From positions 1,426,001 through 1,490,000 of the forward strand of contig JAWPMN010000001.1 in assembly GCA_033344895.1 (NCBI GenBank): a stretch of DNA of 64,000 nt, in the 5' to 3' direction. Under the pieces are notes generated by a model. That model did not search any database. It was given only the letters and a program-made list of their open reading frames with translations, and was not told the DNA's origin. This DNA comes from Alphaproteobacteria bacterium (lineage in GTDB: Bacteria; Pseudomonadota; Alphaproteobacteria; UBA8366; Aestuariispiraceae). A program made the translations under genes and the position numbers. Shown here piece after piece: positions 8,819 through 31,584 of this stretch (positions are counted from its first letter, which is position 1; each line of letters begins with the position of its first letter).

Positions 8819-8908
8819 GTGGGTGAGCCTAGACGAATCTGGAGGACAGGTGAACCGGAACCCGTCGATTTCTGAACGGGTTCATTGATTTTTCATACGA
8901 ACAATAAG

Positions 8909-8936: not shown

Positions 8937-8974
8937 TGATACAAGTATCTGATCTAAAGGGGATATGGGGTTCG

Positions 8975-9565: not shown

Positions 9566-9595
9566 CCGACCGGATTGAGGGATAGGCTTCCTGCC

Positions 9596-10300
9596 ATGAT
9601 GCACCATTTGATCCGTTCATGCCTGCTGGCGCTGATTGTGGCGCTGACCGCGAGCTGCTACCTGCCCAACAAGTTCGAACTGACGATGCAGGTTGCCCCG
9701 GACGGGCGCTATTCGATCGCCTATGACGGCACGCTGACCCAGCTTCAGTTTCTGCAGCGGATCGGTACCGGCGAGTTGAAGGGTGACGCCATCGATGAGT
9801 ATGTCGGCATCTACGAGAACGAGATGCGGCGCAATTCCGGCTTCAAGGAAGTCTCGTATCAGGGCAATGCCGAGTATCAGGTGAAGTATGAGAAGCAGGG
9901 CAGTCTGGCAAAGGAGAAGCAGTTCAGCTTCCCCTCCCGTCGGGGCATCATGCTGGGTCTGCGCCGGTGGACCGCGGAAAGCGCCCAAGACTACGTTGCC
10001 CGTTTCGAGGCGACCGGTCACCCGGCATTGCAATCGCTGGCGGAGGCCGGCTTCGCCCGCGAACCCCATATCATGGAGCTGTTCGGCGACCGCCTGCCCG
10101 CAAAGATGCGGCAGGATCTGATTGCCAATGGCTTCTGGATTCAGGGCGAAATCCGCGTCTGGACCGACGCCAAGGTCGGGTATCACAACGCCAATCAGGT
10201 GGTCGAGGGCAGTCCCAGCCTGTATGTCTGGAGCATCGACGACCTGAACGATCCATCACCGCACATGATCCTCGCCTGGACGCCGCCGCCGGGCGAATAG
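9596..10300 (+). CDS. Putative lipoprotein of unknown function
   Basis: 234 aa from ATG 9596. The signal peptide ends in a lipobox, LIVALTASC, with the lipidated Cys near residue 21, so the mature protein should be anchored in a membrane facing the periplasm. The mature part (YLPNKFELTMQVAPDGRYSI onward) is soluble and mixed alpha/beta, with no domain I recognise. It starts 30 bp after the BetI-like gene and is followed 44 bp later by the DUF350 gene, suggesting a small co-transcribed envelope group. Confidence 0.7.
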   Translation: MMHHLIRSCLLALIVALTASCYLPNKFELTMQVAPDGRYSIAYDGTLTQLQFLQRIGTGELKGDAIDEYVGIYENEMRRNSGFKEVSYQGNAEYQVKYEKQGSLAKEKQFSFPSRRGIMLGLRRWTAESAQDYVARFEATGHPALQSLAEAGFAREPHIMELFGDRLPAKMRQDLIANGFWIQGEIRVWTDAKVGYHNANQVVEGSPSLYVWSIDDLNDPSPHMILAWTPPPGE

Positions 10301-10344
10301 GCCAGGCAGCGGACGGCCCCAGGGACCACGCAACAGGACATCTC

Positions 10345-10764
10345 ATGGAATTCACTCCCATTTTGCAGAGCCTGCTGGCCGGGTTCCCCTATCTGCTGCT
10401 GCATTTCGGGCTGACCCTGGCAATCTGGATCGCAGGCGTGCTGCTGTATGCCGTCTCGACGCCGTATCACGAGTTGGCACTGATCCGGCAGAACAATGTT
10501 GCGGCGGCGGTCACTCTGTCGGGGGCGATGCTGGGATTGGCAATTCCCCTGGCCTTTGCCATGGCGGCCAGCGTAAGCGCCGCCGACATCCTGGTCTGGG
10601 GCGCGGTGACGATCATCGTTCAGATTCTGGTCTACCGGGCCATCGACCTGGTGCTGCGCGGCCTGCCGAAACGTGTCGAAGCCGGCGAGATCGGCCCGGC
10701 GATTCTGGTTTCCGCCACCAAGCTGTCCGTCGCGGCATTCAACGCGGCGGCGGTGTCGGGATAG
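10345..10764 (+). CDS. DUF350 (YjfL-like) inner-membrane protein
   Basis: 139 aa from ATG 10345 with an AGGA RBS. Four hydrophobic segments: about 12-38 (PYLLLHFGLTLAIWIAGVLL), 50-75 (NNVAAAVTLSGAMLGLAIPL), 80-105 (DILVWGAVTIIVQILVYRA) and 120-138. The N-A-A-x-A-x-x-x-x-G pattern in TM2 is typical of the DUF350/YjfL family, whose biochemical role is unknown. It sits between a lipoprotein gene and a serine protease gene on the same strand. Confidence 0.75.
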   Translation: MEFTPILQSLLAGFPYLLLHFGLTLAIWIAGVLLYAVSTPYHELALIRQNNVAAAVTLSGAMLGLAIPLAFAMAASVSAADILVWGAVTIIVQILVYRAIDLVLRGLPKRVEAGEIGPAILVSATKLSVAAFNAAAVSG

Positions 10765-10779
10765 GCCGGACCCCGCCGC

Positions 10780-11613
10780 ATGCGTCCGATCGACATCATC
10801 GCCCTGCTGATCATGTTCGGGGTGCTGGCGGCCTCGCTGCTGGGGCTGTTCGATGACGGTTCCCAGCCGCGGGAAGAACGTCGGCGGCCGGCACCTGCCG
10901 GCCCGGCCCTGCCCGACCCCAGCCCCCGGGACCCGGTGGTAATGGTCCAGGAAAGCGACCGCCGGGGAAACAGCGTCGGCACAGCATTTTCCCTGGATTC
11001 CGAAGGCGTATGGATGACCGCGCGTCATGTCGTCGAAGGGTGCAGCAAGGTCGGAATCCTGCGCGACCGGGAAAATGCGGTGCGCGTCCACCGGATCTGG
11101 ATTCATCCGGATGCCGATCTGGCAATTCTGTCCGAGACCCTGAAGCGCCCCGCCCTGGCGTTTGCCGACCGCCTGCCGACACTCGGGGAAACCGGCTACG
11201 GAATCGGATATCCGCAGGGCAATCCGGGCGACGTGACCGGCACCCTGATCGGGCGCGCCGTTTCGGTCCGGAGCACCCGACAGGACAAGCGGGAGCCGAT
11301 CCTGACCTGGGCGGAAACCGCGCGCTTCCCGGATTTCGAGGGATCGCTGGGCGGGATCAGCGGCGGCCCCCTCTTCGTTTCGGAAGGCCTGGTTGCGGGC
11401 GTGGTGATCTCCGGCTCGCCACGCAGAGGCCGTTTCAACACGGCGGCCCCGCGCAGCTTTCCCGCGGCCCTGGCGGCGGCCGGCCTGAGAAGGCAGGCAG
11501 ATATTCGATTCTACCCCACCCCGGACGACATAAGCGAAAGCAGATTTGACGGGCTCGGAGACGCTCTGCGGAGTGCCGGCGCGGTCGCCCAGGTCTTTTG
11601 TCTGGTCGAATGA
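10780..11613 (+). CDS. Membrane-anchored trypsin-like serine protease
   Basis: 277 aa. The N-terminal hydrophobic anchor is residues 4-24 (IDIIALLIMFGVLAASLLGL), then a Pro/Arg-rich linker to about 50, then a trypsin/DegP-like fold. The triad is visible: His in WMTARHVVEG, Asp in HPDADLAIL and Ser in GGISGGPLFV. No PDZ domain follows. The protein is predicted to act in the periplasm as a small anchored protease or, if inactive, a binding protein. It follows the DUF350 gene by 15 bp. Confidence 0.8.
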   Translation: MRPIDIIALLIMFGVLAASLLGLFDDGSQPREERRRPAPAGPALPDPSPRDPVVMVQESDRRGNSVGTAFSLDSEGVWMTARHVVEGCSKVGILRDRENAVRVHRIWIHPDADLAILSETLKRPALAFADRLPTLGETGYGIGYPQGNPGDVTGTLIGRAVSVRSTRQDKREPILTWAETARFPDFEGSLGGISGGPLFVSEGLVAGVVISGSPRRGRFNTAAPRSFPAALAAAGLRRQADIRFYPTPDDISESRFDGLGDALRSAGAVAQVFCLVE

Positions 11614-11992
11614 GGTAACCTGACACCGTCGGATGCAGCGGAAACCGTCGCGTTTTTAACCAAAACAGAAGACGAAACGACCTCCCGGCGGAACTTTCGT
11701 ACGGGCTTATAAATTAATAAGGACAAAATTTTTTGCATTGTTTATCAATATTATCATACCGCAAATCAAAATATTGTGGTGTGACAACGACATGAACAAT
11801 ACAGTTAGATTTATCTAAATTTCGAAAATAATTTGAATTCCATTACAGAATAAATCCAACACTATTTCGATCATTATCCAATTCGATACTCATTGCTTTT
11901 CAAATCTGACTTTTTGAATGTCGACACCGGCAAACAGCCACCAAATCGGCAAGTCCGCCGAAATCGTGTCTTGCAGAGGTGAGGACAAAAAC
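11614..11992. promoter_or_regulatory. AT-rich noncoding region upstream of the pilin gene
   Basis: A 379-bp gap with no credible ORF, strikingly AT-rich (about 11700-11930) against a G+C-rich background. It carries the flp promoter and 5' UTR; the RBS AGGTGAGGA ends 7 bp before the pilin ATG. I could not assign a single -35/-10 pair with confidence because many AT-rich hexamers fit. Such upstream regions commonly bind nucleoid proteins or pilus regulators. Confidence 0.5.
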
Positions 11993-12235
11993 ATGCTGAC
12001 GAACAAACTGACAGAGTTCCTGAAAGACGAATCCGGGGCGACAGCCATCGAATACGGCCTGATCGCGGGTCTGGTCTCCGTCGCCGCCATCGGCGCGTTG
12101 CAGCTGATGGGCACGTCCCTGGTCGATATCTTCACGGTCGTCCAGACCGAGCTGGACAGCGCGGCGCAATCCGCGACCAGCAGTGGATCGGGCAGCGGCA
12201 CGGGCGACGGCTCGACCAGCGGTACAGGCGGCTGA
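11993..12235 (+). CDS. flp: Flp/Fap-type type IVb pilin
   Basis: 80 aa from ATG 11993 (MLTNKLTEFLKDESGATAIEYGLIAG), preferred over the in-frame GTG/ATG starts upstream because it has a clear RBS and canonical length. The leader is cleaved after Gly at ESG/ATAIEYGLIAG; the mature pilin starts ATAIEYGL with the conserved Glu5 and Tyr6 of Flp pilins. A hydrophobic helix follows (LIAGLVSVAAIGAL). The C-terminal 20 residues are a Ser/Gly repeat tail (SGSGSGTGDGSTSGTGG), an oddity that may be surface exposed. It heads the Tad locus. Confidence 0.95.
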   Translation: MLTNKLTEFLKDESGATAIEYGLIAGLVSVAAIGALQLMGTSLVDIFTVVQTELDSAAQSATSSGSGSGTGDGSTSGTGG

Positions 12236-12273
12236 TCGCATTTCCCTGGCCCTGTCGGGAATGGGGCGGGATT

Positions 12274-12299
12274 CGGCGCGGGGGATAATAGCGCCGTTT
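12274..12299 (+). terminator. Possible attenuator between flp and cpaA
   Basis: CGGCGC (12274-12279) pairs with GCGCCG (12291-12296) over an 11-nt loop, followed by TTT. A partial terminator after the pilin gene would allow far more pilin than machinery, as is common in tad loci. The stem is short and the U-tract poor. Confidence 0.35.
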
Positions 12300-12358
12300 C
12301 CCGCCTCCCGGCGGCCGGGTGACCTGCAATCAACCCGCACCGAGAGGGACCGGTAGCG

Positions 12359-12874
12359 ATGTTCGATCCACTTCTATCCTTGTGGCAGTCCGGGGATGCC
12401 CGGCACGCGGTTCTGATCGCCGGTATCGCACTGACGGTCTGGGCCGCGGCGACGGACCTCCGCCACTTCATCATTCCGAACAGAACGATTGTCGCGCTGT
12501 TTGCGGGCGGCGCGATTTGGATTCTGGTGTCCGGCGCCGCGCCCGGAACGCATCTTGCCGCATTCGCCACGGTACTGGCCCTCGGCTTTGCTGCCTATGC
12601 GCTCGGCTTCTTCGGCGCGGGGGATGCGAAACTGATGGCTGTCCTGGCCTTGTGGACCGGGCCTCAGGTCGCCGTCGCGCTGGTCCTGCAGACATTGCTG
12701 TTCGGCGCCATCCTGGCATTCGTGTGGATGCTGAGCCGCCCGGTCCGCACTCTGCTGATGGCGGCCGGCCTGCCGGTCGATCCCGACCCGCCCGCCCAGA
12801 TCCCCTACGCCGTCGCCATCGCGGCGGCCGCGCTTTTCGCCTTTGCAGGCCTCTGGCCGCCGCTCGGCGTCTGA
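12359..12874 (+). CDS. cpaA: Prepilin peptidase CpaA/TadV
   Basis: 171 aa, multi-pass membrane aspartic protease that cleaves the Flp leader. The two catalytic Asp are visible: D33 in AATDLRHFIIPN and D82 in GFFGAGDAKLMA, the latter being the GxGDxK hallmark. About five or six TM segments cover the rest. It lacks the N-methyltransferase domain of PilD-type enzymes, as expected for TadV. Confidence 0.93.
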   Translation: MFDPLLSLWQSGDARHAVLIAGIALTVWAAATDLRHFIIPNRTIVALFAGGAIWILVSGAAPGTHLAAFATVLALGFAAYALGFFGAGDAKLMAVLALWTGPQVAVALVLQTLLFGAILAFVWMLSRPVRTLLMAAGLPVDPDPPAQIPYAVAIAAAALFAFAGLWPPLGV

Positions 12875-12888
12875 GAAGGAGACGGGCC

Positions 12889-13800
12889 ATGCGTGTCAAA
12901 CTGCTTCTTCTTCTACTGGTCGCCGGGGGCGCCGCCTTCGGCGCGGTGACGGTCGCGCGCGGCTGGCTGGAGGACCGCCGGGCAGAGCTGCTGGCGTTGC
13001 AGACCAGCACGCCGGTCCAGGTCGAGACCATCGACACCGTCGAGGTTCTGGTCGCAAGGGAGGATCTGCCGAGCGGCACTTTCCTGCATATCGATCAATT
13101 CGTCTGGACCCCGTTCCCCAGCGAGAACCTGCCTGAAACCTATCTGACCCGCGCGACGATGGGCGAAGAGGGCCTGACCGGCGCGGTGATCCGCGGTGCG
13201 ATCACCTCCGGGGAGCCCCTGACCGTCGGCCGCGTGATCCGGCCGGGCGACCGCGGCTTCCTGGCGGCCGTGCTTCGGCCCGGGCTGCGTGCGGTTTCGG
13301 TGCCCGTCGACGCCACGACCGGCATCGCGGGCTTCGTCTTCCCCGGCGACAGGGTGGACCTGCTTCTGACCCATGAGGTCGAGCTGTCGCAGCGCATGAA
13401 GCGCTTGGCGACGGAGACCGTGCTGACCGACATCAGGGTGCTGGCCGTCGACCAGCGCACAGACGATACCGAGGGTGAACCGACCCTCGCCAAGACGGCC
13501 ACGCTGGAAGTCGATTCCAAGGCGGCCGAAGTGATCGCCGTCGCCCTCAGAATGGGGCGCCTGTCCCTCGCTCTGCGCTCTCTGGCGCAGGATTCCGACG
13601 CCCTGGCGACGGCGACCCCTTCCCCTGACGCACAGACCTACACCTGGGACAGCCAGGCCAGCCGTCTGCTGCCCCCGATCTCCGCCCCGGCGCAACCGGT
13701 GCGGAGTGCGCCGGCAAGACCAGCCCCGCCCAAGGTCACCGTCACGGTGATCCGGCGCGGTGAAACGGAGACCGTCGAGTTCAGGGATACGGGATCATGA
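12889..13800 (+). CDS. cpaB: Pilus assembly protein CpaB/RcpC
   Basis: 303 aa from ATG 12889 (RBS AAGGAGA); the open frame extends upstream across cpaA but those residues are not real. An N-terminal TM segment (residues 4-21) is followed by a SAF domain (VEVLVAREDLPSGTFLHIDQF) and the RcpC/CpaB core (RAVSVPVDATTGIAGFVFPGDRVDLLLTHE). A Pro/Ala-rich C-terminal tail follows. CpaB is a periplasmic component thought to stabilise or gate the secretin. Its stop overlaps the cpaC ATG (ATGA). Confidence 0.93.
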   Translation: MRVKLLLLLLVAGGAAFGAVTVARGWLEDRRAELLALQTSTPVQVETIDTVEVLVAREDLPSGTFLHIDQFVWTPFPSENLPETYLTRATMGEEGLTGAVIRGAITSGEPLTVGRVIRPGDRGFLAAVLRPGLRAVSVPVDATTGIAGFVFPGDRVDLLLTHEVELSQRMKRLATETVLTDIRVLAVDQRTDDTEGEPTLAKTATLEVDSKAAEVIAVALRMGRLSLALRSLAQDSDALATATPSPDAQTYTWDSQASRLLPPISAPAQPVRSAPARPAPPKVTVTVIRRGETETVEFRDTGS

Positions 13801-15206
13801 CCCCCGGCATTCGAACCCTGGCACTGGCCCTGGCCGCGGTCGCCGGCACGGGATGGGGCATCGCGGCGCCGCCGGTCGCGACCCCGGTCCTGGCCGACAC
13901 CCACACCGCCGACGCGCCGGGCCGCGCCGGACCGATCGCCCTCGATCTGGGGGCGGGCGAGATGCTGCAACTGGCCGGGCGCGCAACCGCCGTCTACGTC
14001 GCCAATGACGAGGTCGCGGATGTGCAGTTGCGGACGCCGATGCTGCTCTATGTGTTCGGCAAGGCTGCGGGTGAAACGACCCTGACCGTCATCGGCCAGA
14101 ACGACGAGGTGCTGCTGTCGCGTCGTGTTCAGGTGCGTCACAACACGGTGCGACTGCAGGAACTGATCGCCATCATTCAGCCGGATGCGCAGGTCGATCT
14201 GGAATCGATCCGGCAGTCGCTGGTGATCTCCGGCCATGTGCCCAGCGCCGAGGCCGCGGAAGACATCTTTCAACTGGCGCGGACCGTGATCGGTGAGGAC
14301 GGGCTGATCCTGAACCACATGCGCGTCGGGGCACCGAACCAGGTCAACCTGCGCGTCCGCATTGCCGAGGTCAGCCGCGAGACGACCAAGCGACTGGGCT
14401 TCAGCTGGGACATTCTGAAGACTGCCGGGGAATTCAGTTTCGGACTGGCGACCGGCGGCTTCATCTCCGGCGCGGTAGACGGATCCAGCATCCTGTCGCT
14501 GGCAAAGGACGGCAGCGGCTTCGACGTCAACGGCCTGATCGACGCGCTGGACGATCAGGGTTTGATTACCGTTCTGGCGGAACCGAACCTGACGGCGCTG
14601 AGCGGCGAATCGGCGAACTTCCTCGCCGGCGGCGAATTCCCGATTCCGGTCCCGGACGGCGACGACGGCGCGATCACCATCGTCTTCAAGAAATTCGGCG
14701 TCAGCCTGGCCTTCATGCCGGTGGTGATGGGCGACGGCCGCCTGCATATCAAGGTCAGCACGGAGGTCAGCCAGTTGGCGACGGCCGGGGCTGTTTCCTT
14801 CAACGGGTTCAACATTCCGGCCCTGACCGTCCGCCAGGCAACGACTACGGTGAACCTGAACAGCGGTCAGAGCTTCGCCATCGCGGGCCTGCTGCAGAAC
14901 ACCACCAATCAGGACGTGTCGGGGGTCACCGGGCTGGGCGACATCCCGATCCTGGGCGCCCTGTTCCGGTCCACCGATTTTCAGCGCGACGAGAGCGAGC
15001 TGGTGGTCATCGTGACGCCCTATGTGGTGCGCCCGACCTCCGGAAAGCTGGCACTGCCGACCGACGGTTTCGAGCCCGCATCCGACCGGGAACGGATGGC
15101 CAATGCCGCCGACCACAGCCCGCGCGTGCCGGATTCCCACAGAACCCCGCTGAACAGCGACGGAACCCAGGGCCTGAAAGGGCCCGGCGGATTCCTGTTG
15201 CGCTGA
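13797..15206 (+). CDS. cpaC: Outer-membrane secretin CpaC/RcpA
   Basis: 469 aa with a signal peptide (about residues 1-35). The N-terminal N0/BON-like part has DLGAGEMLQLAGRATAVYVAN and AGETTLTVIGQNDEVLLSRR; the C-terminal secretin domain has AEPNLTALSGESANFLAGGE, a SLAFMPVVMG strand and IPILGALFRS. It forms the multimeric outer-membrane pore for the Flp pilus. It starts inside the cpaB stop (ATGA overlap) and precedes cpaD by 12 bp. Confidence 0.94.
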   Translation: MTPGIRTLALALAAVAGTGWGIAAPPVATPVLADTHTADAPGRAGPIALDLGAGEMLQLAGRATAVYVANDEVADVQLRTPMLLYVFGKAAGETTLTVIGQNDEVLLSRRVQVRHNTVRLQELIAIIQPDAQVDLESIRQSLVISGHVPSAEAAEDIFQLARTVIGEDGLILNHMRVGAPNQVNLRVRIAEVSRETTKRLGFSWDILKTAGEFSFGLATGGFISGAVDGSSILSLAKDGSGFDVNGLIDALDDQGLITVLAEPNLTALSGESANFLAGGEFPIPVPDGDDGAITIVFKKFGVSLAFMPVVMGDGRLHIKVSTEVSQLATAGAVSFNGFNIPALTVRQATTTVNLNSGQSFAIAGLLQNTTNQDVSGVTGLGDIPILGALFRSTDFQRDESELVVIVTPYVVRPTSGKLALPTDGFEPASDRERMANAADHSPRVPDSHRTPLNSDGTQGLKGPGGFLLR

Positions 15207-15218
15207 GGACGCACTGCC

Positions 15219-15806
15219 ATGAGACCCATCACGCTTATCCTTCTTGTCGCCGGACTGCTGACCGCCTGCGGTCCCACCCAGACCCGCAGCGATGTGGAAC
15301 TGCGCCGGGAACCGATCTTCGACACGATCACGGACAGCGCGGAGATTGCACCGGGCCTTGCAGGCGATACAGCGCTGGACCTCCTGCTGGCCCGGAATGA
15401 CGCCCGCTATGGTGACCGACTGGTGGTGACCGCCCCGGCGGAAACCCGGGAGAGCCTGAGACGGCGTCTTGCCGCGACCGGGGTCCGGGTGCTGCCGGCA
15501 CCGGAAGGGGAAACCGGTCCGAACAAGCCCTACAGAGCCACCTTCGTGCGGCTGATCGTGACACCACCGAGTTGCGGCGACTGGTCCGACGAAGCGGATT
15601 TCGACAACAAACCCGACGCCCATTGGGGATGCTCCCAGACATCGAACCTGGCGCGAATGGTGGCCGATCCCAACGATCTGCTGGCCGGGCGGGAGACCAT
15701 AGGACCACAAGGCACCGCCGCCGACATTCTGGCGATCCGCGCCTATCGTCAGCGCACCATCAAATGGGTCCCCGATCCGGCTGATGCGGCCACCGTGGGT
15801 GATTGA
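15219..15806 (+). CDS. cpaD: Pilus assembly lipoprotein CpaD
   Basis: 195 aa. The lipobox LLTAC puts the lipidated Cys at residue 17, so the mature protein is tethered to the outer membrane. The family signature near the C-terminus is clear: PPSCGDWSD, then WGCSQTSNLARMVADPNDLL, the conserved Cys pair and (Q)xNLAxMVAxPxDL. CpaD is required for secretin assembly in Caulobacter. Between cpaC and cpaE in the standard order. Confidence 0.92.
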   Translation: MRPITLILLVAGLLTACGPTQTRSDVELRREPIFDTITDSAEIAPGLAGDTALDLLLARNDARYGDRLVVTAPAETRESLRRRLAATGVRVLPAPEGETGPNKPYRATFVRLIVTPPSCGDWSDEADFDNKPDAHWGCSQTSNLARMVADPNDLLAGRETIGPQGTAADILAIRAYRQRTIKWVPDPADAATVGD

Positions 15807-15816
15807 GGAAACGGCC

Positions 15817-17025
15817 ATGGAACACGCACAGACCCGAAAAACAGCCACTCGCCTGCCCGACCGCGTCGTCGCCTATATCGACGACGCCCGGATTTCCGAC
15901 GGGCTCGCCCGCCTGGCCGACGGTTGCGGCATCGCGATGGCCGAAGTGCTGCCCGGCGGCCTGACCGCCGCGCTGTCCGATGACGCCCCCGCCGCCGAGG
16001 TGATCCTTCTGGAAATCGACAACCCGGATGACGCGGTCGAAGCATTGTCCGTCCTGTCGGCACGCTGCACGGCCCGCCTGCTGGCGGTCGGTCGACGGGA
16101 CGATGTCCGGACCTATCGGCGCCTGCGCGAAGCCGGCGCCTCGGACTATCTGGTCGTCCCGTTGGAAGACGACGACCTGCTGGCCGCACTGCGCGTGCCG
16201 GCGAGCCGGCCGGCCCGGGAAAATTCCGACGACGCCGCGGTCGAACCGCGCGTCACGGTCTTCCTGGGCTGCCGCGGCGGTGTCGGTGCGACCACACTGG
16301 CGGTTTCCACGGCCTGGTGGGCAGCGGAGAAACTGAACACCCAGACCGCGCTGGTCGACCTGGACCTGATCTTCGGCACGGCCACACTGGCGCTGGACCT
16401 GTTGCCCGGACGCGGCCTGCGGGAGGCGCTTGAGCATCCCGAGCGGATCGATCCGCTATTCGTCGGCAGCGCCATGATCAATGCCACCGACAACCTGTTC
16501 GTGCTGGGGGCGGAGGAACATCCGGGACTGGAAACCGTCCCGGTGCCGGACGGCCCGGTGCGCCTGATCGAGGCTGTGGCGGAAAGCGTCCCGACCATCC
16601 TGGTCGATCTGCCGCGCGGCATGCTGCCCGCCGCCCGCGACCTGATCCGCAGGGCGGACGAGGTGGTTCTGGTCACCGATCTGAGCCTGGGAGGCCTGCG
16701 CGATTCGATCCGCCTTCGGACGCTGTGTCGGGAAAGCGCCCCGGACACGGCCGTGACACTGATCGGCACGGTTCCGCCCTCCGGTCCGCCGCCCATCGAA
16801 AGGCGGGAATTCGAGCGCGCCTGCGAATGCGCGGTTGACTGGCTTGTACCGTTGGACAGCCGGGCCGCAGCGGCGGCAGCTTCCGACGGCAAACCCGTCG
16901 TGTCGAAGCTGAGACCGAAACACGCCTATTCCCGCGCTGTCCGCAACATCGCGGAGCGGGCGGTCCCCGCCAGCCCGACGGATGGCGTCCGCAAGACTGG
17001 AGCGAAACGCAAATGGCTCTGGTAG
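15817..17025 (+). CDS. cpaE: CpaE/TadZ-type pilus localisation ATPase
   Basis: 402 aa from ATG 15817. An N-terminal receiver-like domain (about 10-135) lacks the phospho-acceptor pattern; a MinD/ParA-like domain follows (about 145-360). The P-loop is GCRGGVGATTLA: the signature lysines of the deviant Walker A are replaced by Arg and Ala, common in TadZ, which dimerises and directs the pilus to a pole. The Walker B-like strand TALVDLDLIFGTATLALDL is retained. The C-terminus overlaps cpaF by 13 bp. Confidence 0.9.
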   Translation: MEHAQTRKTATRLPDRVVAYIDDARISDGLARLADGCGIAMAEVLPGGLTAALSDDAPAAEVILLEIDNPDDAVEALSVLSARCTARLLAVGRRDDVRTYRRLREAGASDYLVVPLEDDDLLAALRVPASRPARENSDDAAVEPRVTVFLGCRGGVGATTLAVSTAWWAAEKLNTQTALVDLDLIFGTATLALDLLPGRGLREALEHPERIDPLFVGSAMINATDNLFVLGAEEHPGLETVPVPDGPVRLIEAVAESVPTILVDLPRGMLPAARDLIRRADEVVLVTDLSLGGLRDSIRLRTLCRESAPDTAVTLIGTVPPSGPPPIERREFERACECAVDWLVPLDSRAAAAAASDGKPVVSKLRPKHAYSRAVRNIAERAVPASPTDGVRKTGAKRKWLW

Positions 17026-25415: not shown

Positions 25416-25455
25416 ATCCGCCGACCACAAACACCGTGACGTGCCTCAGAAACGA

Positions 25456-25485
25456 CGAAACCCCCCGGTTTCCCGGAGGGTTTCG
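25456..25485 (-). terminator. Displaced tRNA-Ala terminator at the left end
   Basis: CGAAACCC (25456-25463) pairs with GGGTTTCG (25478-25485); read on the minus strand it is followed by TCGTTTC. It resembles the hairpin at 31478-31507 and is probably the original tRNA-Ala terminator, now cut off from the gene by the inserted element. It also lies just past the sensor kinase stop. Confidence 0.55.
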
Positions 25486-25531
25486 ATGGTGGAGCCAAGC
25501 GGGATCGAACCGCTGACCTCTACACTGCCAG
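25481..25531. repeat. Left attachment-site repeat (attL), tRNA-Ala 3' fragment
   Basis: 51 bp identical to 31503-31553, covering the tRNA-Ala CCA end, T arm, variable region and the anticodon stem-loop to its middle. At 25532 the sequence diverges (ccgctc instead of tgtagc), so no complete tRNA exists here. Similarity to the right copy extends left through a terminator-like hairpin to about 25449 with a few mismatches. Confidence 0.93.
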
Positions 25532-25628
25532 CCGCTCAGAACAGCCCCTCAAAGAGCGACTTGGACCGCAAGTAACGACAACCGGCAACACCGGATTTCC
25601 GCACCTTACAACATGCCACGACAGCCAA

Positions 25629-25646
25629 TCGGGACCGCGGTCCCGA
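25629..25646. repeat. Left subterminal 18-bp palindrome
   Basis: TCGGGACC-GC-GGTCCCGA is a perfect 18-bp palindrome 98 bp inside the left repeat. It matches 31428-31445 except for the two central bases, and both copies continue into AAAC. Likely an integrase arm, Xis or repressor binding site. Confidence 0.6.
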
Positions 25647-25689
25647 AACGCGGCCGTGCGGCGCGCCTCCGAAACGGGAGGCCGCGACC

Positions 25690-26418
25690 ATGGTTGATCG
25701 GCTGACCAGCGAAGACTTCTCCCTCGAAATCGAAGAACACGGCAACGGCTGCCGCCTGTCCCTGGTCATGTCCTGGGAGGCCCTGGAAAGCCTGTTGTCG
25801 ACCGTCGCCTTACGGATCGATCCGCGATTGGCCGCGACGCGCGAAGAGCAGGGCCGGCGGCGGGAAATGGAAGCCAAGGCTGCGGCGAAGCGCACCGAGA
25901 ACCTGAAACTCGGCTGCGCGATCCTGGCGGAAGTGGACCGCCTCAAATTCGAGGGCCTGCCCGCGAATGTGGTCTGGTCTCGCGTCGCCTCGGAGCGAGG
26001 CCTGACCGCACCTGTCGCCCGCGCCCTCGGCCGGATCGCCAAGGCCGATTACCTGCGCGGCCGCGACCGTGAAATTCTCCGCCTCCATGGCATAGGCTAC
26101 TCGCTCCGCCAGATCGAGACATGCACCGGCGTTTCCAGATCGACGGTTGCCAACCGGCTCAAAAAGCTGATCCCCGCTCCAGGCGACGGAGGGGAGTCCA
26201 GACCCTCCTCGGGAGACCGCGCCGCCAAGGCGCGGCGGGAGGGTCTTGACGCCCCGGAGACGCCCCCACCGTCGCCACAGGGGTCAGGAAGTGAAGGGAG
26301 CGGCAACGCCGCCCCTTCTCTGCCTGTACCCCTGCCCGTCGGCGAGACGCGGGGGTGTGGGGGCAAGGCCCCCGCTTCCCCCTCTGGCGAGTGCTGCGAC
26401 AAAGGCAGCGTGTCATGA
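25690..26418 (+). CDS. Hypothetical protein with C-terminal-half helix-turn-helix
   Basis: 242 aa. Residues 50-90 are rich in charged helix; residues 120-158 contain REILRLHGIGYSLRQIETCT then GVSRSTVANRLKKL, a resolvase/Hin-like HTH. From about residue 160 the protein is low-complexity Gly/Pro/Ser, and its DNA includes a hairpin, GGGGGC-AAG-GCCCCC (26359-26373), typical of intergenic repeats, so the true functional end may be near residue 160. First gene at the left end of the element, on the same strand as rep. Function unknown; could be a replication or copy-control factor. Confidence 0.6.
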   Translation: MVDRLTSEDFSLEIEEHGNGCRLSLVMSWEALESLLSTVALRIDPRLAATREEQGRRREMEAKAAAKRTENLKLGCAILAEVDRLKFEGLPANVVWSRVASERGLTAPVARALGRIAKADYLRGRDREILRLHGIGYSLRQIETCTGVSRSTVANRLKKLIPAPGDGGESRPSSGDRAAKARREGLDAPETPPPSPQGSGSEGSGNAAPSLPVPLPVGETRGCGGKAPASPSGECCDKGSVS

Positions 26419-26462
26419 CTTCCAAATTTTTAGAGCGCGAAATCAAATTCAGAGCGGGACAC

Positions 26463-27104
26463 TCAATAAGACCTCTTATTGAGAAACTCCCTATACCAAT
26501 CCCCGTCACCCGTCTTATCCAAACTACTTTGAATAACGTTGCTTATTTTACCTTGAAGTCGCCTAGCATTATCTTCCATCGCGTCGATCATAGAGACGCC
26601 TTTTTCGCGCAACTCATCAGGTATGCTTCCTGTAATCACATCATTCATTACAAAAGCGTCTTCCACAAGAGCGCCAATACGGATTTGTATTTCTGGCTCT
26701 TGTGTTTTGATGACATCTCTATCTCTAAGTATTTCGGGGATTTTGAAACTTGTTCCGTCCCCCCCCTGTTCGGCGCGTTTTTTGTTAAAGGTAATTTCCC
26801 GGTAGAGTTCCGCGACCGCCACACGAATTCCACAAGCGTCGGCGGTCTCTGCAATTTGCTCGTCCCGAAGTTCCCTTGTCCGACGGGCTTCAAGCGGTGC
26901 CAAAGTCGTCCAAGCAACGGTAGCGGCTGTAAAGATTGCCGCAAACGCACCGTAAAGCCCTCCGATCAAAGTTTGATATCGGTCAACGGCTGCGTCGAAC
27001 GTCGCGGAGAATTGCCCCAGCAGGAGCAGGGAAACGAAGCCAGCAGCTGCCACGGCAAAGACCGCAAGAACAGAGAAGACGGCAATCAAGGACTTCCAAC
27101 GCAT
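26463..27104 (-). CDS. Two-TM membrane protein, likely element cargo
   Basis: 213 aa from ATG 27104 (MRWKSLIAVFSVLAV); an ATG at 27140 is possible but would collide with the divergent rep start. TM1 is about residues 5-30 and TM2 about 46-66 (LIGGLYGAFAAIFTAATVAW). A cytosolic helical domain follows, with LEARRTRELRDEQIAETADA then VAELYREI, ending YREFLNKRSY. It is the only gene of the element on the minus strand, and its DNA (26420-26900) is much more AT-rich than its surroundings, suggesting separate acquisition. I do not recognise the family. Confidence 0.6.
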   Translation of the reverse strand: MRWKSLIAVFSVLAVFAVAAAGFVSLLLLGQFSATFDAAVDRYQTLIGGLYGAFAAIFTAATVAWTTLAPLEARRTRELRDEQIAETADACGIRVAVAELYREITFNKKRAEQGGDGTSFKIPEILRDRDVIKTQEPEIQIRIGALVEDAFVMNDVITGSIPDELREKGVSMIDAMEDNARRLQGKISNVIQSSLDKTGDGDWYREFLNKRSY

Positions 27105-27138
27105 GATGTGAGTGCTCTTTGGGATCAGGAGATGAGCC

Positions 27139-28674
27139 ATGGCTTCATCGCTTGATTGTCTCGCAAGCGGCGTTTTGCCGTCAACGGCCTTTTGTCCACG
27201 TAGAGGGAGTCCCCAAGCTCTTCCCACTCCCAAAGCGATCACTAGTCGGGACGACTACGGTTGGAACGCCGGCCCGAAGGAAATCACCGCAAAGGAAATC
27301 GGTGAAGCGATGATCGGCCGCGAGGTCGCTCGCGATACCTTCCTCGATGGGCAGCGCCGCGAACGGCTTCTGAAAGAGCAGACCGAAGACCTGATCGCAC
27401 GTCTGGAGCGCGTCGGGATCGATGGCCGCACCTATGGCCGCCAGACGGCGATTGTTGGCCTGGTCACGGGCCAGGCCGTCCGCGTCCATCCCTTCCGAAA
27501 CTGCAACATGTTGCCGGCACCGCAGTCGCGGAACGTCCACGACATGCTGAAAAGCGTCCGCTACCTGTTCGACGTGACGAAGCGCGGCCGGCTGCGGATG
27601 CTGGTCGTATCCGGCGGGTGGGTGCCGCTGCGCCGCTATCGCGCATGCCACAAGGCGCATACCCGCCTCATGTCGAAATTCGCCGCGCATCCGAAGCTGA
27701 AAGGCCTCGGGATCGACGTTGAGTTCTACAACGTCGAGAACACCATTCAGCGGGATGACGACGACACGGCGATGCTGAACCTGCATAGCCATGTCTTGTT
27801 CAAATGCCGGCGTCACCTGGGCGCGAAACGCTGGCGGGAGTTCCTGGACTTCGCCCGGGGATACTTCCCCAAGGGCTACGTCCATGACAGCCCGGTCCAG
27901 AAGCCGGCGGAAGTGGTCAAATACGTCTTCAAGCCCCAGGAGTTCGAGGCACTGACCGACGAAGAGTTGGGCGAACTGTTCCTCCAGATCGCTGGTGGCC
28001 GGCCAAAAATCGATCCGGAGACGGGCGAGGTCGCAATGCGGATCGGCCCGGATGGTGAGCTGACCGAAATTCGGGAACGCGGCCTGAAGTTCTTCCACCC
28101 TCTCGGATCACTGCGCATCTTCCGCCGGAAGCTTCGGGAGAACCGTCAGAAGCTTGTCCTGGTGCCCACGGTCGACGACCGGTGGATATGGCGCGTGACG
28201 GAGCGCAAGGACGCCCAGGAGCGCCCGGAGCCGTCAGACAGCCTGCCGGAAGACAACCGGGTCCTGGCGATCACCCGCCCCATGCCGAAATTCACCCGGC
28301 GCATGGAGCCGTGCCTGATCGTCCAGAACTATGACGGCGACTTTGAAGACCTGATCCGCCGGAACCGCCTCCAGGACACCGTAACGGACGCCCGGGCCAT
28401 ATTCCGGACCCGCGTCGACACCGACCGGCGCGCCGCCGAAGGCGACGCCCCTATGAGGCACACTACAACGACAACTGTCCCGGAGAGGGACCGACCACCG
28501 GACCCAAATCCGTCCACGGGAGATCCGGACGGATGGGACTTCGGACAATCAGACCTGGATTCGCGAACACAAGGCCCCGGGAACTTCCCCGGGACCGCAG
28601 AAACGTGCCCGGGAATGAGCCCGGGACCGTACCCGGGAATGTCCCGGGGCAACTCCTCCGTATCCCTTAACTAA
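27139..28674 (+). CDS. Candidate HUH-endonuclease replication initiator (Rep)
   Basis: 511 aa from ATG 27139 with AGGAG 8 bp upstream. The core shows LNLHSHVLFKCRR (residues 213-225), an H-x-H metal site as in HUH Rep proteins, and 43 residues later AEVVKYVFKPQEFE (Tyr262), matching the EvxKYvxK nicking-tyrosine motif of rolling-circle plasmid initiators. The order HUH then KY and the spacing fit the Rep_1/pUB110-like group. The tail (about 455-511) is low-complexity and encoded by repeats. Residues 1-55 look unconserved, so ATG 27310 is an alternative start. An integrated element encoding a replication initiator is unusual. Confidence 0.65.
   Translation: MASSLDCLASGVLPSTAFCPRRGSPQALPTPKAITSRDDYGWNAGPKEITAKEIGEAMIGREVARDTFLDGQRRERLLKEQTEDLIARLERVGIDGRTYGRQTAIVGLVTGQAVRVHPFRNCNMLPAPQSRNVHDMLKSVRYLFDVTKRGRLRMLVVSGGWVPLRRYRACHKAHTRLMSKFAAHPKLKGLGIDVEFYNVENTIQRDDDDTAMLNLHSHVLFKCRRHLGAKRWREFLDFARGYFPKGYVHDSPVQKPAEVVKYVFKPQEFEALTDEELGELFLQIAGGRPKIDPETGEVAMRIGPDGELTEIRERGLKFFHPLGSLRIFRRKLRENRQKLVLVPTVDDRWIWRVTERKDAQERPEPSDSLPEDNRVLAITRPMPKFTRRMEPCLIVQNYDGDFEDLIRRNRLQDTVTDARAIFRTRVDTDRRAAEGDAPMRHTTTTTVPERDRPPDPNPSTGDPDGWDFGQSDLDSRTQGPGNFPGTAETCPGMSPGPYPGMSRGNSSVSLN
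28576..28648 (+). repeat. Six CCCGGG repeats at helical spacing in the 3' end of rep
   Basis: CCCGGG occurs at 28576, 28588, 28608, 28620, 28632 and 28643: spacings of 12, 20, 12, 12 and 11 bp. Flanks alternate between gaatgag/gaatgtc and gaccgca/gaccgta. They encode the PG-x-x-PG stretch of the protein tail but look like iterons or a binding array for the initiator. One face of the helix would be presented. Confidence 0.55.
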
Positions 28675-28722
28675 GGGTCGGGGAACCACCGGGGAAAGCG
28701 TTTCCCCTACGTACGTATACGT
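28664..28722 (+). promoter_or_regulatory. Hairpin cluster after rep, candidate nicking/double-strand origin
   Basis: CCCTTA-AC-TAAGGG (28664-28677) spans the rep stop; GGGGAAA-GCG-TTTCCCC (28691-28707) is a perfect 7-bp stem with a 3-nt loop; then alternating tacgtacgtatacgta (28707-28722) contains overlapping palindromes. No U-tract follows, so this is not a simple terminator. Tandem hairpins next to rep resemble rolling-circle origins; the function is inferred. The next gene starts at 28743. Confidence 0.45.
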
Positions 28723-28742
28723 AACGGAAAGGAAAATTCACC

Positions 28743-29501
28743 ATGACCGATATCGACACCCTGACGCCGGAGACGATCGGCAAGCGCATCAAGGATGCCC
28801 GGGACAGCGCCGGACTTTCTCGGGCGCGTCTCGGCGACCTGACCAAAATCAGCCCGCGCGTGATCGAGAAGATCGAGGCCGGCACACAGGAGGCTTCCGC
28901 AACGCGGCTCCGCGCCCTGTGTTCTGCCTTGAAAATCGATCCGGCCGAATTCCTGGGTACTGGCAAACCGGCCTCTGCCCAGACCGCCGAGGGGCACGAC
29001 TTGCTGGCGTTCGATCCGATGGACCGCGCGTCGCTGATCCTGGAAGAAATCGACGGCCTGCGGTCGGATGGCTTCGAAGGGAGCGCGCGGAAGGCCATGG
29101 CACTGGCGACGATGGCGAAGGATGCCTTGTCGCATCTGGAACCGGAGGATTTGAACAGGCTCGCTCGCCTGCGCGGACTTGCCCGGCACGACACGGTGGA
29201 CGGCCTGACAATCCTGGACCTCTTCGACGCAGACCCGTGCAAAGGTCACGATTACTGCGGATTTATCGAAGACCGGATCGTCGACACGGCTGTTATCGGT
29301 CTGGACCTTTTCGCCCTGGACGAAGCCCAGGCGCATGCTCTGGCCGGGGAACTGGCAGAAATGGACCGTCTGGAGCGTCCCGGCCTTCTCAGCGACTGGC
29401 CGGAAATGGAAAGGCTCTATCCGGGTATCCAGCCGATCATTCGGCGTATCGTGACGGCGGGAAAGACCCTCAAGCACCTGACGGACGATCCGCCGTTCTA
29501 A
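28743..29501 (+). CDS. XRE-family HTH regulator
   Basis: 252 aa. HTH_XRE at residues 11-68: IGKRIKDARDSAGLSRARLG, then DLTKISPRVIEKIEAG and RALCSALKIDPAEFLG. The C-terminal 170 residues are helical and acidic with no domain I recognise. RBS GGAAAGGA. It lies between the hairpin cluster and the second XRE gene. Probably a control protein of the element, either for copy number or for excision. Confidence 0.8.
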   Translation: MTDIDTLTPETIGKRIKDARDSAGLSRARLGDLTKISPRVIEKIEAGTQEASATRLRALCSALKIDPAEFLGTGKPASAQTAEGHDLLAFDPMDRASLILEEIDGLRSDGFEGSARKAMALATMAKDALSHLEPEDLNRLARLRGLARHDTVDGLTILDLFDADPCKGHDYCGFIEDRIVDTAVIGLDLFALDEAQAHALAGELAEMDRLERPGLLSDWPEMERLYPGIQPIIRRIVTAGKTLKHLTDDPPF

Positions 29502-29599
29502 GCTGTGGGTTCAATAACTGGCGGCGCCGAGACACAAGATGTGGCGGTGCCGCCAGTTACTCGACTAGATACAGACTTTTCTATTGCCCTATATGGTGA

Positions 29600-29622
29600 A
29601 ATGGGACTATGTTTGTCCCATT
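29600..29622. promoter_or_regulatory. Operator over the start of the second XRE gene
   Basis: AATGGGAC (29600-29607) and GTCCCATT (29615-29622) are perfect 8-bp inverted arms with a 7-bp spacer, ending immediately before the ATG at 29623. A dyad over the translation start is the classic layout of an autoregulated repressor. The GGGAC/GTCCC half-sites also occur in both end palindromes of the element, though at different spacing. Confidence 0.7.
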
Positions 29623-30192
29623 ATGAGCGACACTGACGTCTTCTACTATCACTATCGTGGCCTCGGCGGCATGCTGGAAAGAGAGCGGCTTTCTAGAAAG
29701 TTATCTCGGGCCAAATTGGCTGAACTAGCCGGCGTTAACCCGAATTCCCTGGCAAAATGGGAAAAGGCTGGCCTGGAGGATGGAAAGTACCCTCCGCTTC
29801 CGAAATTGACCCGACTTTGCAAAATTTTGGATATCGACCCTCGGGACGTTTTTGAGGTCGTCTATCGCGAAAGCGAGAAACAAGCACCGACTGACATTGA
29901 TCCTGAAACAGGTATCGCTTTCGAGGATCCCGACGCTTTCAGCTTCAAACGCCATTTCCAAGAAAAAGGTGCCGAGCGAGACTATGGATATCTCCATGGC
30001 AAGCTTGGATTGATCGAACACTATCTGGAGCAACTTTTCGAGAAAGTCGAGAAGGTCGACACGCGCCTTGGCGTTGTCACGGACCACAAAGAAAACGGCC
30101 CGGATCGCGATGATCCGGGCCGCCCTTCGCAAAACCCCTCAGCGGCTGTTAGCGCAGCCTCTGACCAACCAAAAGAGGAGGATCAGACGTGA
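29623..30192 (+). CDS. XRE-family repressor-like regulator
   Basis: 189 aa from ATG 29623 (MSDTDVFYYHYRGLGGMLER). HTH_XRE at about 18-70: LSRAKLAELAGVNPNSLAKW and LTRLCKILDIDPRDVFEV. A helical, probably coiled-coil stretch follows (GKLGLIEHYLEQLFEKVEKVDTRL split at residue 140) that could dimerise. An inverted repeat abuts the start. Its stop overlaps the xis-like GTG, so the repressor, xis-like and int genes form one operon. I chose the internal ATG over 29584 because the dyad lies between them. Confidence 0.8.
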   Translation: MSDTDVFYYHYRGLGGMLERERLSRKLSRAKLAELAGVNPNSLAKWEKAGLEDGKYPPLPKLTRLCKILDIDPRDVFEVVYRESEKQAPTDIDPETGIAFEDPDAFSFKRHFQEKGAERDYGYLHGKLGLIEHYLEQLFEKVEKVDTRLGVVTDHKENGPDRDDPGRPSQNPSAAVSAASDQPKEEDQT

Positions 30193-30557
30193 GTGATTTG
30201 TCCGAGGGAGAATATACACCCCCCTTCGAAATTCCACAACAAACCGGGCAACGTGTTCGGCGCGGCTATCTTAGCGTGGCGCAAGTCGCGACGATTGTCG
30301 GCGTCTGTGAGGAAACTGTCCTGCGGCGCATCCGCCAAGGTGTGCTGCCGGCAATCCGTTTCGGGAGATCAGGCCGAAGTCCGTATCGAATCAAGATATC
30401 GGACTTAGCTGAGACCCTGGAGGAAGGAACATGCCACGGCCCCGCCAACCGCCCCGGCTGCACCGCCGGCCCGGAAAGCGGTTCTGGTACGTCATCGACG
30501 GCCCGCACCGCTACTCGACTGAAACGGAAGATCGCCAGGAGGCGGAACGATGGCTAG
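30189..30557 (+). CDS. Xis-like HTH protein (excisionase family)
   Basis: 122 aa from GTG 30189 (AGGAGGATC upstream), overlapping the previous stop (GTGA). Residues 27-75 are a MerR/excisionase-type winged HTH: YLSVAQVATIVGVCEETVLR then IRQGVLPAIRFGRSGRSPYR and IKISDLAETLEE. The last 43 residues overlap the start of int by 127 bp in another frame and look non-conserved. It probably sets the direction of integrase action, favouring excision. Belongs to the operon XRE-xis-int. Confidence 0.75.
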   Translation: MSDLSEGEYTPPFEIPQQTGQRVRRGYLSVAQVATIVGVCEETVLRRIRQGVLPAIRFGRSGRSPYRIKISDLAETLEEGTCHGPANRPGCTAGPESGSGTSSTARTATRLKRKIARRRNDG

Positions 30558-31558
30558 CCGACTATGTGTCCGGCTTGTCCAAGCCGCCGCCCGATCCGAC
30601 GATACTGGACCTGTTCAACTGGCGTCGACGCCTTGCAGACGCCGCCGGACAGGCCCGGGCGCGTTCGGTCATGCAGGGCTATCACAAGATGCTGGAGGAG
30701 CACTTCGGTGCCCTCCGACCGGAACAAATTACGCCGGAGCAGGTCGCGCGGTATGTGCAGTACCGGCAATCCATCGGCCGGCAGGGACGGCACGAGTTGA
30801 TCGAACTCCGCTCGACGTTGAATGCGGCCGCGAAGGCGGAGCTGATCGCGAAGGCCCCATCGATCAGAATTCCGGCCGGGGGACGGCCCCGGGACGTGTT
30901 CCTGACGCGGGACGAATTCCGCCGGTTGCTGACGGTCGAAATGCCCCGGCATACATGGCTGTTCATCCTGATCGCCGGCAGTACCGGCGCACGGAAGGGT
31001 GCCATTCTGGATTTGACCTGGGACCGCGTTCACTTCGCGCGCGGCGTGGTCGACTTCAACCACCCGGACAAGGCCCCGAACAACAAGCGCCGGGCGGTCA
31101 TTCCCCTATCGCCATCGGTCATGGACGTGCTCAAGGCGGCGCATACCGAGGCGAAGGGCGAGACGGTCATAGAGGTCGACGGGAACCCGGTCCAGGATAT
31201 CAAGAACAGCTTCCGGCACGCCGTCACGCAGATCGGCCGGCCGGAGGTCACGCCGCATGCCCTGAAGCATTCGGTGATTTCCTGGCTGGCCCAGGAGGGA
31301 GTGCCGATAGACCGGATCGCGTATTTGACAGAGACCAGCCGCAAGACCGTGGAACGGGTCTATCGCAAGTACAATCCGGAACATTTCGCAGCCGAAGTGG
31401 CAATTTTGGGGAACGGATTGGAGGATATCGGGACCATGGTCCCGAAACAGCCTTCGGAAAGCGCCGCCCCGAAACGACGAAAACCCCCGGTTTCCCGAGG
31501 GTTTTCGATGGTGGAGCCAAGCGGGATCGAACCGCTGACCTCTACACTGCCAGTGTAG
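30431..31558 (+). CDS. int: Tyrosine-type site-specific integrase
   Basis: 375 aa from ATG 30431 (RBS GGAGGAAGGA). SAM-like core-binding domain at about 55-150; catalytic domain from about 155. Box I Arg in AGSTGARKGAILDLTW, beta-strand Lys in NKRRAVIPL, box II TPHALKHSVISWL (H-x-x-K rather than H-x-x-R), the usual LGH replaced by LTETS, and nucleophile Tyr in TVERVYRKYNPEH. These changes are seen in some alphaproteobacterial phage-type integrases. The C-terminus (MVEPSGIEPLTSTLPV) is encoded by the tRNA/att sequence. It catalyses integration at tRNA-Ala. Confidence 0.92.
   Translation: MPRPRQPPRLHRRPGKRFWYVIDGPHRYSTETEDRQEAERWLADYVSGLSKPPPDPTILDLFNWRRRLADAAGQARARSVMQGYHKMLEEHFGALRPEQITPEQVARYVQYRQSIGRQGRHELIELRSTLNAAAKAELIAKAPSIRIPAGGRPRDVFLTRDEFRRLLTVEMPRHTWLFILIAGSTGARKGAILDLTWDRVHFARGVVDFNHPDKAPNNKRRAVIPLSPSVMDVLKAAHTEAKGETVIEVDGNPVQDIKNSFRHAVTQIGRPEVTPHALKHSVISWLAQEGVPIDRIAYLTETSRKTVERVYRKYNPEHFAAEVAILGNGLEDIGTMVPKQPSESAAPKRRKPPVSRGFSMVEPSGIEPLTSTLPV
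31428..31445. repeat. Right subterminal 18-bp palindrome
   Basis: TCGGGACC-AT-GGTCCCGA, perfect and identical to the left copy except for the central two bases; both are followed by AAAC. It lies 57 bp inside the right 51-bp repeat, within the 3' end of int (codons for the GTMVPK region). Confidence 0.6.
31478..31507 (-). terminator. Hairpin downstream of tRNA-Ala (element copy)
   Basis: CGAAAACCC (31478-31486) pairs with GGGTTTTCG (31499-31507), a 9-bp stem read on the minus strand just after the tRNA 3' end and followed by TCGTTTC. It resembles the hairpin at 25456-25485 with a few substitutions, so the element brought a replacement terminator with its att copy. It also overlaps the int 3' end. 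Confidence 0.6.
31503..31553. repeat. Right attachment-site repeat (attR) within tRNA-Ala
   Basis: 51 bp identical to 25481-25531. It contains the tRNA-Ala 3' half and continues into the intact 5' half. Crossover must lie within this block, upstream of the anticodon-stem divergence point. Confidence 0.93.
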
Positions 31559-31584
31559 CGCTCTCCCAGCTGAGCTATGGCCCC
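31509..31584 (-). tRNA. tRNA-Ala, anticodon GGC
   Basis: 76 nt including an encoded CCA. The acceptor stem GGGGCCA/TGGCTCC contains the G3:U70 wobble that identifies alanine tRNAs. The anticodon stem CTACA/TGTAG closes loop CTGGCAG with anticodon GGC, and the T-arm has GGTTCGATCCC. Its 3' half serves as the integration target of the adjacent element and was restored by the element's own copy. Confidence 0.96.

Follow-up and report, generated by a model that had tools for sequence, protein, structure and literature searches.

The window analysed here is a 64,000-nucleotide stretch of an alphaproteobacterial genome of the family Aestuariispiraceae (GenBank assembly GCA_033344895.1, contig JAWPMN010000001.1, positions 1,426,001 to 1,490,000, forward strand). 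It harbors a 6,022-bp element inserted at a tRNA-Ala gene and encoding a tyrosine integrase (Int), an excisionase-type protein (Xis), two XRE regulators and a 511-aa protein (Rep) that is best read as a divergent rolling-circle initiator of the HUH type. Four observations are central to the analysis, namely the anatomy of the element, the conserved motifs of its Rep, a conserved DNA block at the 5' end of the rep gene, and the exchange of rep for a Rep_1 gene in sister elements. The features of the locus, numbered from the first letter of the window, are as follows.

25481-25531: distal attachment-site (att) copy, a 51-bp repeat of the tRNA-Ala 3' half
25690-26418, plus strand: orf1, with a weak helix-turn-helix (HTH) signal
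26204-26376, plus strand: highly structured DNA between orf1 and rep, overlapping the annotated end of orf1
26463-27242, minus strand: cargo gene of low G+C, membrane-type by eye, with a start near 27104 by eye
27139-28674, plus strand: rep, candidate rolling-circle initiator of 511 aa (H216, E258, Y262)
27151-27180, plus strand: CTTGATTGTCTCGCAAGCGGCGTTTTGCCG, candidate double-strand origin or nick site, within rep codons 5-14
28743-29501, plus strand: XRE1 regulator, Cro/C1-type
29584-30192, plus strand: XRE2 regulator, Cro/C1-type
30189-30557, plus strand: Xis-like recombination directionality factor with an excisionase-type HTH (TIGR01764, PF12728)
30431-31558, plus strand: tyrosine integrase (PF00589, 48.2 bits; PHROG integrase, 1.5e-43)
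31503-31553: att copy within the intact tRNA-Ala
31509-31584, minus strand: tRNA-Ala(GGC), the target gene, intact

The element has the attributes of an integrated unit, with direct att repeats, one of which rebuilds the tRNA, and with integrase (PF00589) and excisionase (TIGR01764) genes. The two att copies are identical over 51 bp and their offset gives the unit length of 6,022 bp, the similarity extending past these 51 bp through the tRNA terminator (83 bp, 95%). The 3' end of int falls within tRNA-Ala, and its reading frame would terminate differently in the circular form. The side of the element that is native is suggested by a comparison of terminators across genomes of the same genus. 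Indeed, the left terminator (25449-25480) resembles those of genomes G011 and G013, and the right one (31471-31502), beside the intact tRNA, has a stem identical to those of G009, G010 and G012. The left terminator is thus probably of the native chromosomal type and the right one element-borne. This fits an element bringing its own tRNA 3' half and terminator, as judged from a few genomes among which G011 itself holds a remnant of such an element.

The seven main open reading frames (ORFs) of the element were scanned against Pfam, PHROGs and NCBIfam. The perfect 51-bp repeats, the integrase reading into the tRNA, the Xis-like gene and the two XRE regulators reported in the initial annotation, a model's reading of the letters, were all recovered. 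No capsid, large-terminase, relaxase, coupling-protein or Tra family was recognised on these seven ORFs (oriT was not searched for), in agreement with the earlier remark that no capsid or transfer relaxase gene is visible. Weak small-terminase PHROG matches lie on the HTH parts of orf1 (E 0.0075) and Xis (E 0.034 and 0.053).

The 511-aa protein, of which one copy was found in its own genome, has no match in Pfam, PHROGs or NCBIfam at E<=1. Its LHSH (residues 215-218) and VVKYVFK (residues 259-265) motifs had led the initial annotation to propose an HUH-type Rep. An alignment of four sequences, the focal Rep among them, has 30 columns without variation. H216, E258, V260, K261, Y262 and K265 belong to these, so that the conserved set reads H216 ... 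E258-x-V-K-Y262-x-x-K265. The E-x-x-x-Y spacing is the arrangement of the pC194 Rep (E210/Y214). The H218 position is occupied by N in two of the four sequences, and the context of H216 varies from NLHSHVL in the focal Rep to NMHSHVL in Sneathiella, FHVHSNVI in Denitrobaculum and YHLHANVL in Roseivivax. Rep_1 relatives read HPHLHIL at the corresponding stretch, and each subfamily may retain a different pair of three histidines, on a reading of weak alignments.

The predicted Rep core, of moderate confidence, resembles viral Rep proteins; no Rep_1 or other HUH family of Pfam was matched. The outcomes named beforehand as refuting, a predicted structure devoid of an HUH fold or a gene of a known non-replication family, were not encountered. 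Foldseek of the predicted structure against the PDB was not significant, and a PDB sequence search with A1 returned only ribosomal proteins (E>=0.5). Two hhalign comparisons of the family with Rep_1 were not significant either, one of them placing the HxH strands in register. Membership of PF01446 (Rep_1) was rejected for the focal Rep, which gave no match and did not reach the gathering cut-off of 33.2 bits; its Denitrobaculum relative (locus L013) scored 16.5 bits, also below that cut-off. The protein is nonetheless best read as a probable divergent HUH rolling-circle initiator because of its plasmid-borne relative, its invariant motifs, its Rep-like predicted fold (at the confidence given above) and its replacement by Rep_1 with the same candidate nick site, which upholds the earlier proposal.

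In relaxases, the tyrosine precedes the HUH motif, whereas in Reps it follows. The focal protein displays the Rep-type order, and on the seven ORFs neither a coupling protein nor a member of any relaxase family was recognised (oriT being outside the search). Both points argue against an integrative mobilizable element (IME) in which Rep would double as relaxase and be carried by a co-resident conjugative system. Such a double role has precedents, since Rep_1-type initiators can act as relaxases for ICEBs1 mobilization and MobT/Rep_trans proteins do both, according to excerpts of two sources (PMC5704250, PMC5714925), in which IMEs using rolling-circle initiators as relaxases are described. Mobilization of this type is considered improbable for the element, and its reading as a canonical IME was set aside as no relaxase was recognised on the seven ORFs.

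Relatives of the Rep are rare. They occur in two of the 43 genomes of the order and in 4 of 385 genomes of the class, own genome counted in both, and Rep_1 occurs in 5 of 385, which fits the statement in the initial annotation that such an element is uncommon in alphaproteobacteria. A class search with the A2 profile, scoring at most three candidates per genome, gave hits in 3 of 384 genomes, all already known: Denitrobaculum tricleocarpae (G374), Sneathiella sp. HT1-7 (G381) and G083, whose genus Sneathiella is inferred from its grouping with G381. Within their orders, Rep was found in one of 61 genomes for G374 and in two of 25 for G083, and a contig scan yielded two loci, both in genomes already found. 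Identity to the focal Rep is 46% for G083, 43% in the best segment for HT1-7 (locus L015), whose rep has an in-frame stop, and 24% for Denitrobaculum. One of 72,556 plasmid records contains a relative, and none was found among 50,697 phage records or in IMG/VR. The plasmid is a circular 5,561-bp molecule of Roseivivax marinus (NZ_CP090159.1), whose Rep relative matches the focal Rep with 27% identity over 67% (E 1e-8) and the Denitrobaculum Rep query with an E-value of 1e-34. Thus, a member of the family resides on a free small circle. A MobV-type assignment of ORF 22-1071 of this plasmid was dropped, as no family was above cut-off and blastp did not pair it with the L074 plasmid recombination protein.

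The gene order of the element is found again in other alphaproteobacteria. In Denitrobaculum, orf1-rep-xre1-xre2-xis-int stands at tRNA-Pro with a Rep of the unclassified family. In G258 (locus L028), int-xis-xre2-xre1 lies at tRNA-Val in the same order, the integrase being a PF00589 protein, and the rep slot is filled by a PF01446 Rep_1 (42.8 bits, cut-off 33.2). In the Sneathiella elements, additional cargo is interspersed among rep, xre1, xre2 and int. The same slot can therefore hold either a protein of the focal Rep family or a genuine Rep_1. At the same tRNA-Ala, a decayed sister element stands in G011, of the same genus (L014, 8575-10070). This remnant has lost its left end and att as well as int, and its rep, devoid of the C-terminus, runs into the tRNA terminator after about 134 codons.

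Flanking repeats derived from tRNA are present in all five Int-bearing elements of the module, focal element counted, with lengths of 51 bp in the focal element, 46 bp in Denitrobaculum, 50 and 47 bp in Sneathiella, and 19+14 bp in G258. In Sneathiella HT1-7, each repeat (L015 7236-7282 and 14982-15028) corresponds to the 3' half of a tRNA-Arg, and an intact tRNA gene was recognised beside neither of them, so that the initial target has perhaps been rearranged. XRE1 sequences from all six elements, focal included, can be aligned and have 27-34% identity to the focal XRE1. In the HT1-7 element, a DUF4062 protein (L015 11255-12313; PF13271, 3.1e-29) is nested between xre1 and xre2; this spot varies among elements and is perhaps a cargo site. 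HTH genes occupy the orf1 end in Denitrobaculum and G258.

An Int search at E<=1e-40 retrieved six of 385 class genomes, own included, and the XRE/Rep module was seen only in the focal genome, G374 and G258 in the stretches read, those of two others covering only 4.0 and 6.4 kb. Among the five of 385 class genomes retrieved by the PF01446 search, XRE genes adjoin Rep_1 only in G258 and G418. In G418 (locus L041, G418:C1:3900000-3918000), the element (7049-12040) consists of an ORF with weak, sub-threshold HTH matches at the orf1 end, followed by Rep_1, xre1 and xre2. No integrase was found there by tblastn with three Ints, and the element is flanked by a 19-bp repeat resembling dif. With two mismatches allowed, this dif-like sequence occurs in seven of seven genomes, being exact only in G418; the reversed control occurs in two of seven (G010 and G083), which makes the dif reading tentative. 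The G418 element perhaps uses the host XerCD in place of an integrase. Its type of Rep_1 matched 156 plasmid records (25 of 30 among the matches listed being named 'protein rep'), 15 phage records including the filamentous Propionibacterium phage B5, and PHROG 11698. Also at a dif-like site, with a 20-bp repeat, genome G010 of the focal genus carries an insertion of about 10.6 kb (L038, G010:C18:7000-25000, 6103-16710) encoding a Rep_1 (phrog_11698, 1.2e-78), a packaging-ATPase-like protein (phrog_2666, 5.4e-26) and an endolysin; it may represent a small prophage that is tailless or unusual in some other respect.

These relatives also bear on whether the focal element might be a relic, integrated and no longer capable of excision or replication. 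Decay does affect the family, as illustrated by the clearly degenerated copy at the same tRNA in G011 and by the stop in the HT1-7 rep. Moreover, the focal Int has HxxK in place of the usual HxxR, with catalytic Arg II. HxxK is, however, common to three Ints residing at three different tRNAs (the focal one, 30431-31558, at tRNA-Ala; L013 12717-13835 at tRNA-Pro; L028 1873-2928 at tRNA-Val), HxxR standing at that place in the six other integrase relatives examined, so that it looks like a clade feature rather than damage. As none of the seven main ORFs is interrupted and the two 51-bp repeats do not differ, loss of function is considered unlikely.

A short block near the rep 5' end, revealed by BLASTN between elements, links the two types of initiator. 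Over the 30 bp from 27151, aligned ungapped, the mean pairwise identity among the focal, Denitrobaculum, G258 and G418 elements and the G011 remnant is 0.75, versus 0.25-0.33 in five adjacent 30-bp windows. When synonymous codons were shuffled according to local codon usage, the identity averaged 0.525 and peaked at 0.650, and 0 of 20,000 trials reached the observed value, a figure that carries no correction for the choice of the block after BLAST had pointed there. The test includes the truncated rep of G011, for which the codon table came from a neighbouring histidine-kinase gene, and the table for L041 comprises 450 codons. As shuffles never reach 0.75, the block is conserved as DNA beyond the peptide it encodes, and it is common to genes of two initiators devoid of significant sequence similarity.

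The block starts with CTTGATA in Denitrobaculum, G258 and G418, with CTTGATT in the focal element and with CTGATA, one T being lost, in the G011 remnant. Only CCTTGA is found at the matching place in the two Sneathiella elements, and neither CTTGATA nor the candidate nick block was found in the Roseivivax plasmid. CTTGATA is described as the conserved nicking site of the double-strand origin recognised by Rep_1-like proteins (excerpt of PMC10378824) and as part of the pC194 origin (excerpt of PMC7072734). The block begins at codon 5 in the focal rep and no later than codon 13 in the G258 and G418 genes. In the Denitrobaculum ORF as read, it begins only after some 98 codons, still ahead of the conserved Rep core. 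The pattern CTTGATNNNCNCGCAANNNNNGTTT, derived from the same sequences and hence a gauge of specificity, occurs in two of 284 class genomes (own genome and G258; G374 and G418 fell outside this draw), once in each and both times at the rep 5' end. It is also found in 11 of 69 fetched loci, all being copies of the four elements (focal, Denitrobaculum, G258 and G418), and the strict block pattern has no occurrence in IMG/VR. A hairpin at the nick site was considered and dropped, as only the focal sequence folds well there.

Upstream of rep, the structured DNA (26204-26376) is shared with the G418 element (73.6% over 182 bp, E 3e-24) and also matches the G011 remnant, and across 74 loci no further genome was matched at E<=1e-4; a search of the orf1-rep DNA against plasmids gave no match. 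The tblastn match of orf1 in the G418 locus corresponds to this shared DNA and not to its ORF 7140-7793. Folding against shuffles gives z -6.6 for the focal stretch and z -5.0 for G418, and the stretch is a candidate single-strand origin. That the focal and G418 elements are alike upstream and have dissimilar rep genes past the block fits an exchange of initiator cassettes at the nick site. The initiator is thus probably exchangeable at a conserved origin.

This shared block, the plasmid occurrence, the replacement by Rep_1 and the invariant catalytic-type residues also speak against the focal protein being HUH-like without being a replication initiator, e.g., a regulator or a transposase-type nuclease. 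That it resembles no Rep family of the three libraries would suit such a role, which is nevertheless judged very unlikely.

Among the other features, the cargo gene (26463-27242) matches no family above cut-off in Pfam, PHROGs, NCBIfam or PADLOC; a distant relative with 29% identity occupies the same place in the G011 remnant (L014, about 9102-9506). PADLOC gave nothing convincing for six proteins, and promoter and terminator scans were near chance level. Six CCCGGG palindromes, out of 47 in the window, are crowded into 73 bp of the rep 3' end (28574-28650, plus strand), just before xre1, with start-to-start distances of 11-20 bp, and looser GC-palindrome clusters lie at the same place in L013, L015, L028 and L041. 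The cluster is a candidate operator or origin accessory, and its reading as a proven origin was rejected.

Taken together, these data point to the 6,022-bp unit as a likely integrative rolling-circle replicon. Recombination between the two tRNA-Ala repeats, carried out by Int with Xis, would excise the unit, and the excised circle would be copied by the 511-aa Rep acting as a divergent HUH endonuclease. Rep is expected to nick within a CTTGA(T/A) site that its own gene carries at the 5' end, and to become linked to the DNA 5' end through Y262. E258 may serve the terminating cleavage, as does the glutamate in pC194-type Reps. Single-stranded circles would then be released and filled in by host enzymes, XRE1 and XRE2 presumably holding the unit silent until induction, and reinsertion at tRNA-Ala would restore the tRNA and its terminator.

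Since no transfer gene was recognised, the mode of movement of the element is raised as a question. One answer would be a minimal phage satellite that excises on helper infection and makes rolling-circle concatemers or single-stranded DNA to be packaged by the helper phage, without capsid genes of its own. The 6.0-kb size and the gene set (int, a Xis-type gene, a replication gene and regulators, with no structural genes recognised) resemble those of Vibrio PICMI115, which is described in an excerpt of PMC10803314 as a 6,110-bp satellite with int, alpA and a primase gene, its rolling-circle concatemer being packaged by a virulent phage. The phage matches of the G418 Rep_1, phage B5 and PHROG 11698 among them, and the prophage-like Rep_1 insertion of G010, with its packaging-ATPase-like and endolysin genes at a dif-like site, point in the same direction. 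Conversely, no packaging or interference gene was recognised, no helper is known, the focal Rep and the strict block pattern were missing from the viral records searched, and a Rep relative lives as a plasmid. Packaging by a helper is therefore regarded as rather doubtful, slightly less so than mobilization or decay.

Beyond this locus, a broader reading is plausible without reaching the level of the probable, namely an undescribed alphaproteobacterial family of compact integrative rolling-circle replicons. Its members would have the layout orf1-rep-xre1-xre2-xis-int and reside at tRNA genes, or else lack int and occupy a dif-like site. Their initiator cassette (unclassified HUH or Rep_1) would be exchanged at a nick site embedded in the 5' coding part of the initiator gene itself, and packaging as rolling-circle concatemers may let them spread in the manner of PICMI satellites. 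What is new is an initiator family that is unclassified, that is exchanged with Rep_1 and that has a nick-site block in common with it, the kind of element itself being known. No description of an integrase combined with a rolling-circle Rep on a compact alphaproteobacterial element was found in the literature searched, which excluded subscription papers. The element adds an initiator family without match in Pfam, PHROGs and NCBIfam, and suggests a way for small replicons to swap initiators yet keep their origin. As this origin block seems to be used as well by sister elements that have a known Rep_1, initiator activity is directly testable.

Several known systems share part of these features. 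Charybdis elements, with archaeal hosts and no hallmark genes, were set aside (excerpt of PMC12324425). The Roseivivax plasmid shares a Rep relative and an HTH_17 gene like xis (PF12728) but is a free circle in which tblastn with the focal Int, XRE1 and XRE2 found nothing, and which lacks a recognisable nick block. The pC194/pUB110-type Rep_1 proteins (PF01446) have in common with the focal Rep an HxH followed by E-x-x-x-Y-x-x-K, the candidate CTTGAT nick site and the same slot in sister elements, whereas the CxSxWxCPxC region, which is conserved among the three Rep_1 proteins in alignment A5, is absent from the focal Rep, as is any Pfam match. As far as the excerpt of PMC10803314 goes, PICMI satellites of Vibrionaceae are also about 6 kb in size, with an integrase, an AlpA/Xis-type gene and their own replication gene, but PICMI115 has a primase and PICMIs insert next to fis. 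The streptococcal IMEs with Rep_trans/Rep_2-type initiator-relaxases (excerpt of PMC5704250) similarly combine an integrase with a rolling-circle initiator in a compact element, although their initiators belong to other families and no coupling protein was recognised in the focal element. Actinomycete integrative and conjugative elements (AICEs), exemplified by pSAM2 with RepSA, share the tRNA integration, the rep-xis-int order, a rolling-circle initiator and the exchange of Rep subfamilies, and they carry an FtsK-type Tra (excerpt of PMC3218068). The identity of the focal element as an AICE was rejected because no Tra, of FtsK/SpoIIIE type or other, was recognised on its seven ORFs; it is moreover alphaproteobacterial, about 6 kb long and equipped with another initiator family. 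The combination of an integrase with a rolling-circle Rep, exemplified by AICEs of actinomycetes and IMEs of streptococci, is hereby extended to alphaproteobacteria in the form of a minimal element.

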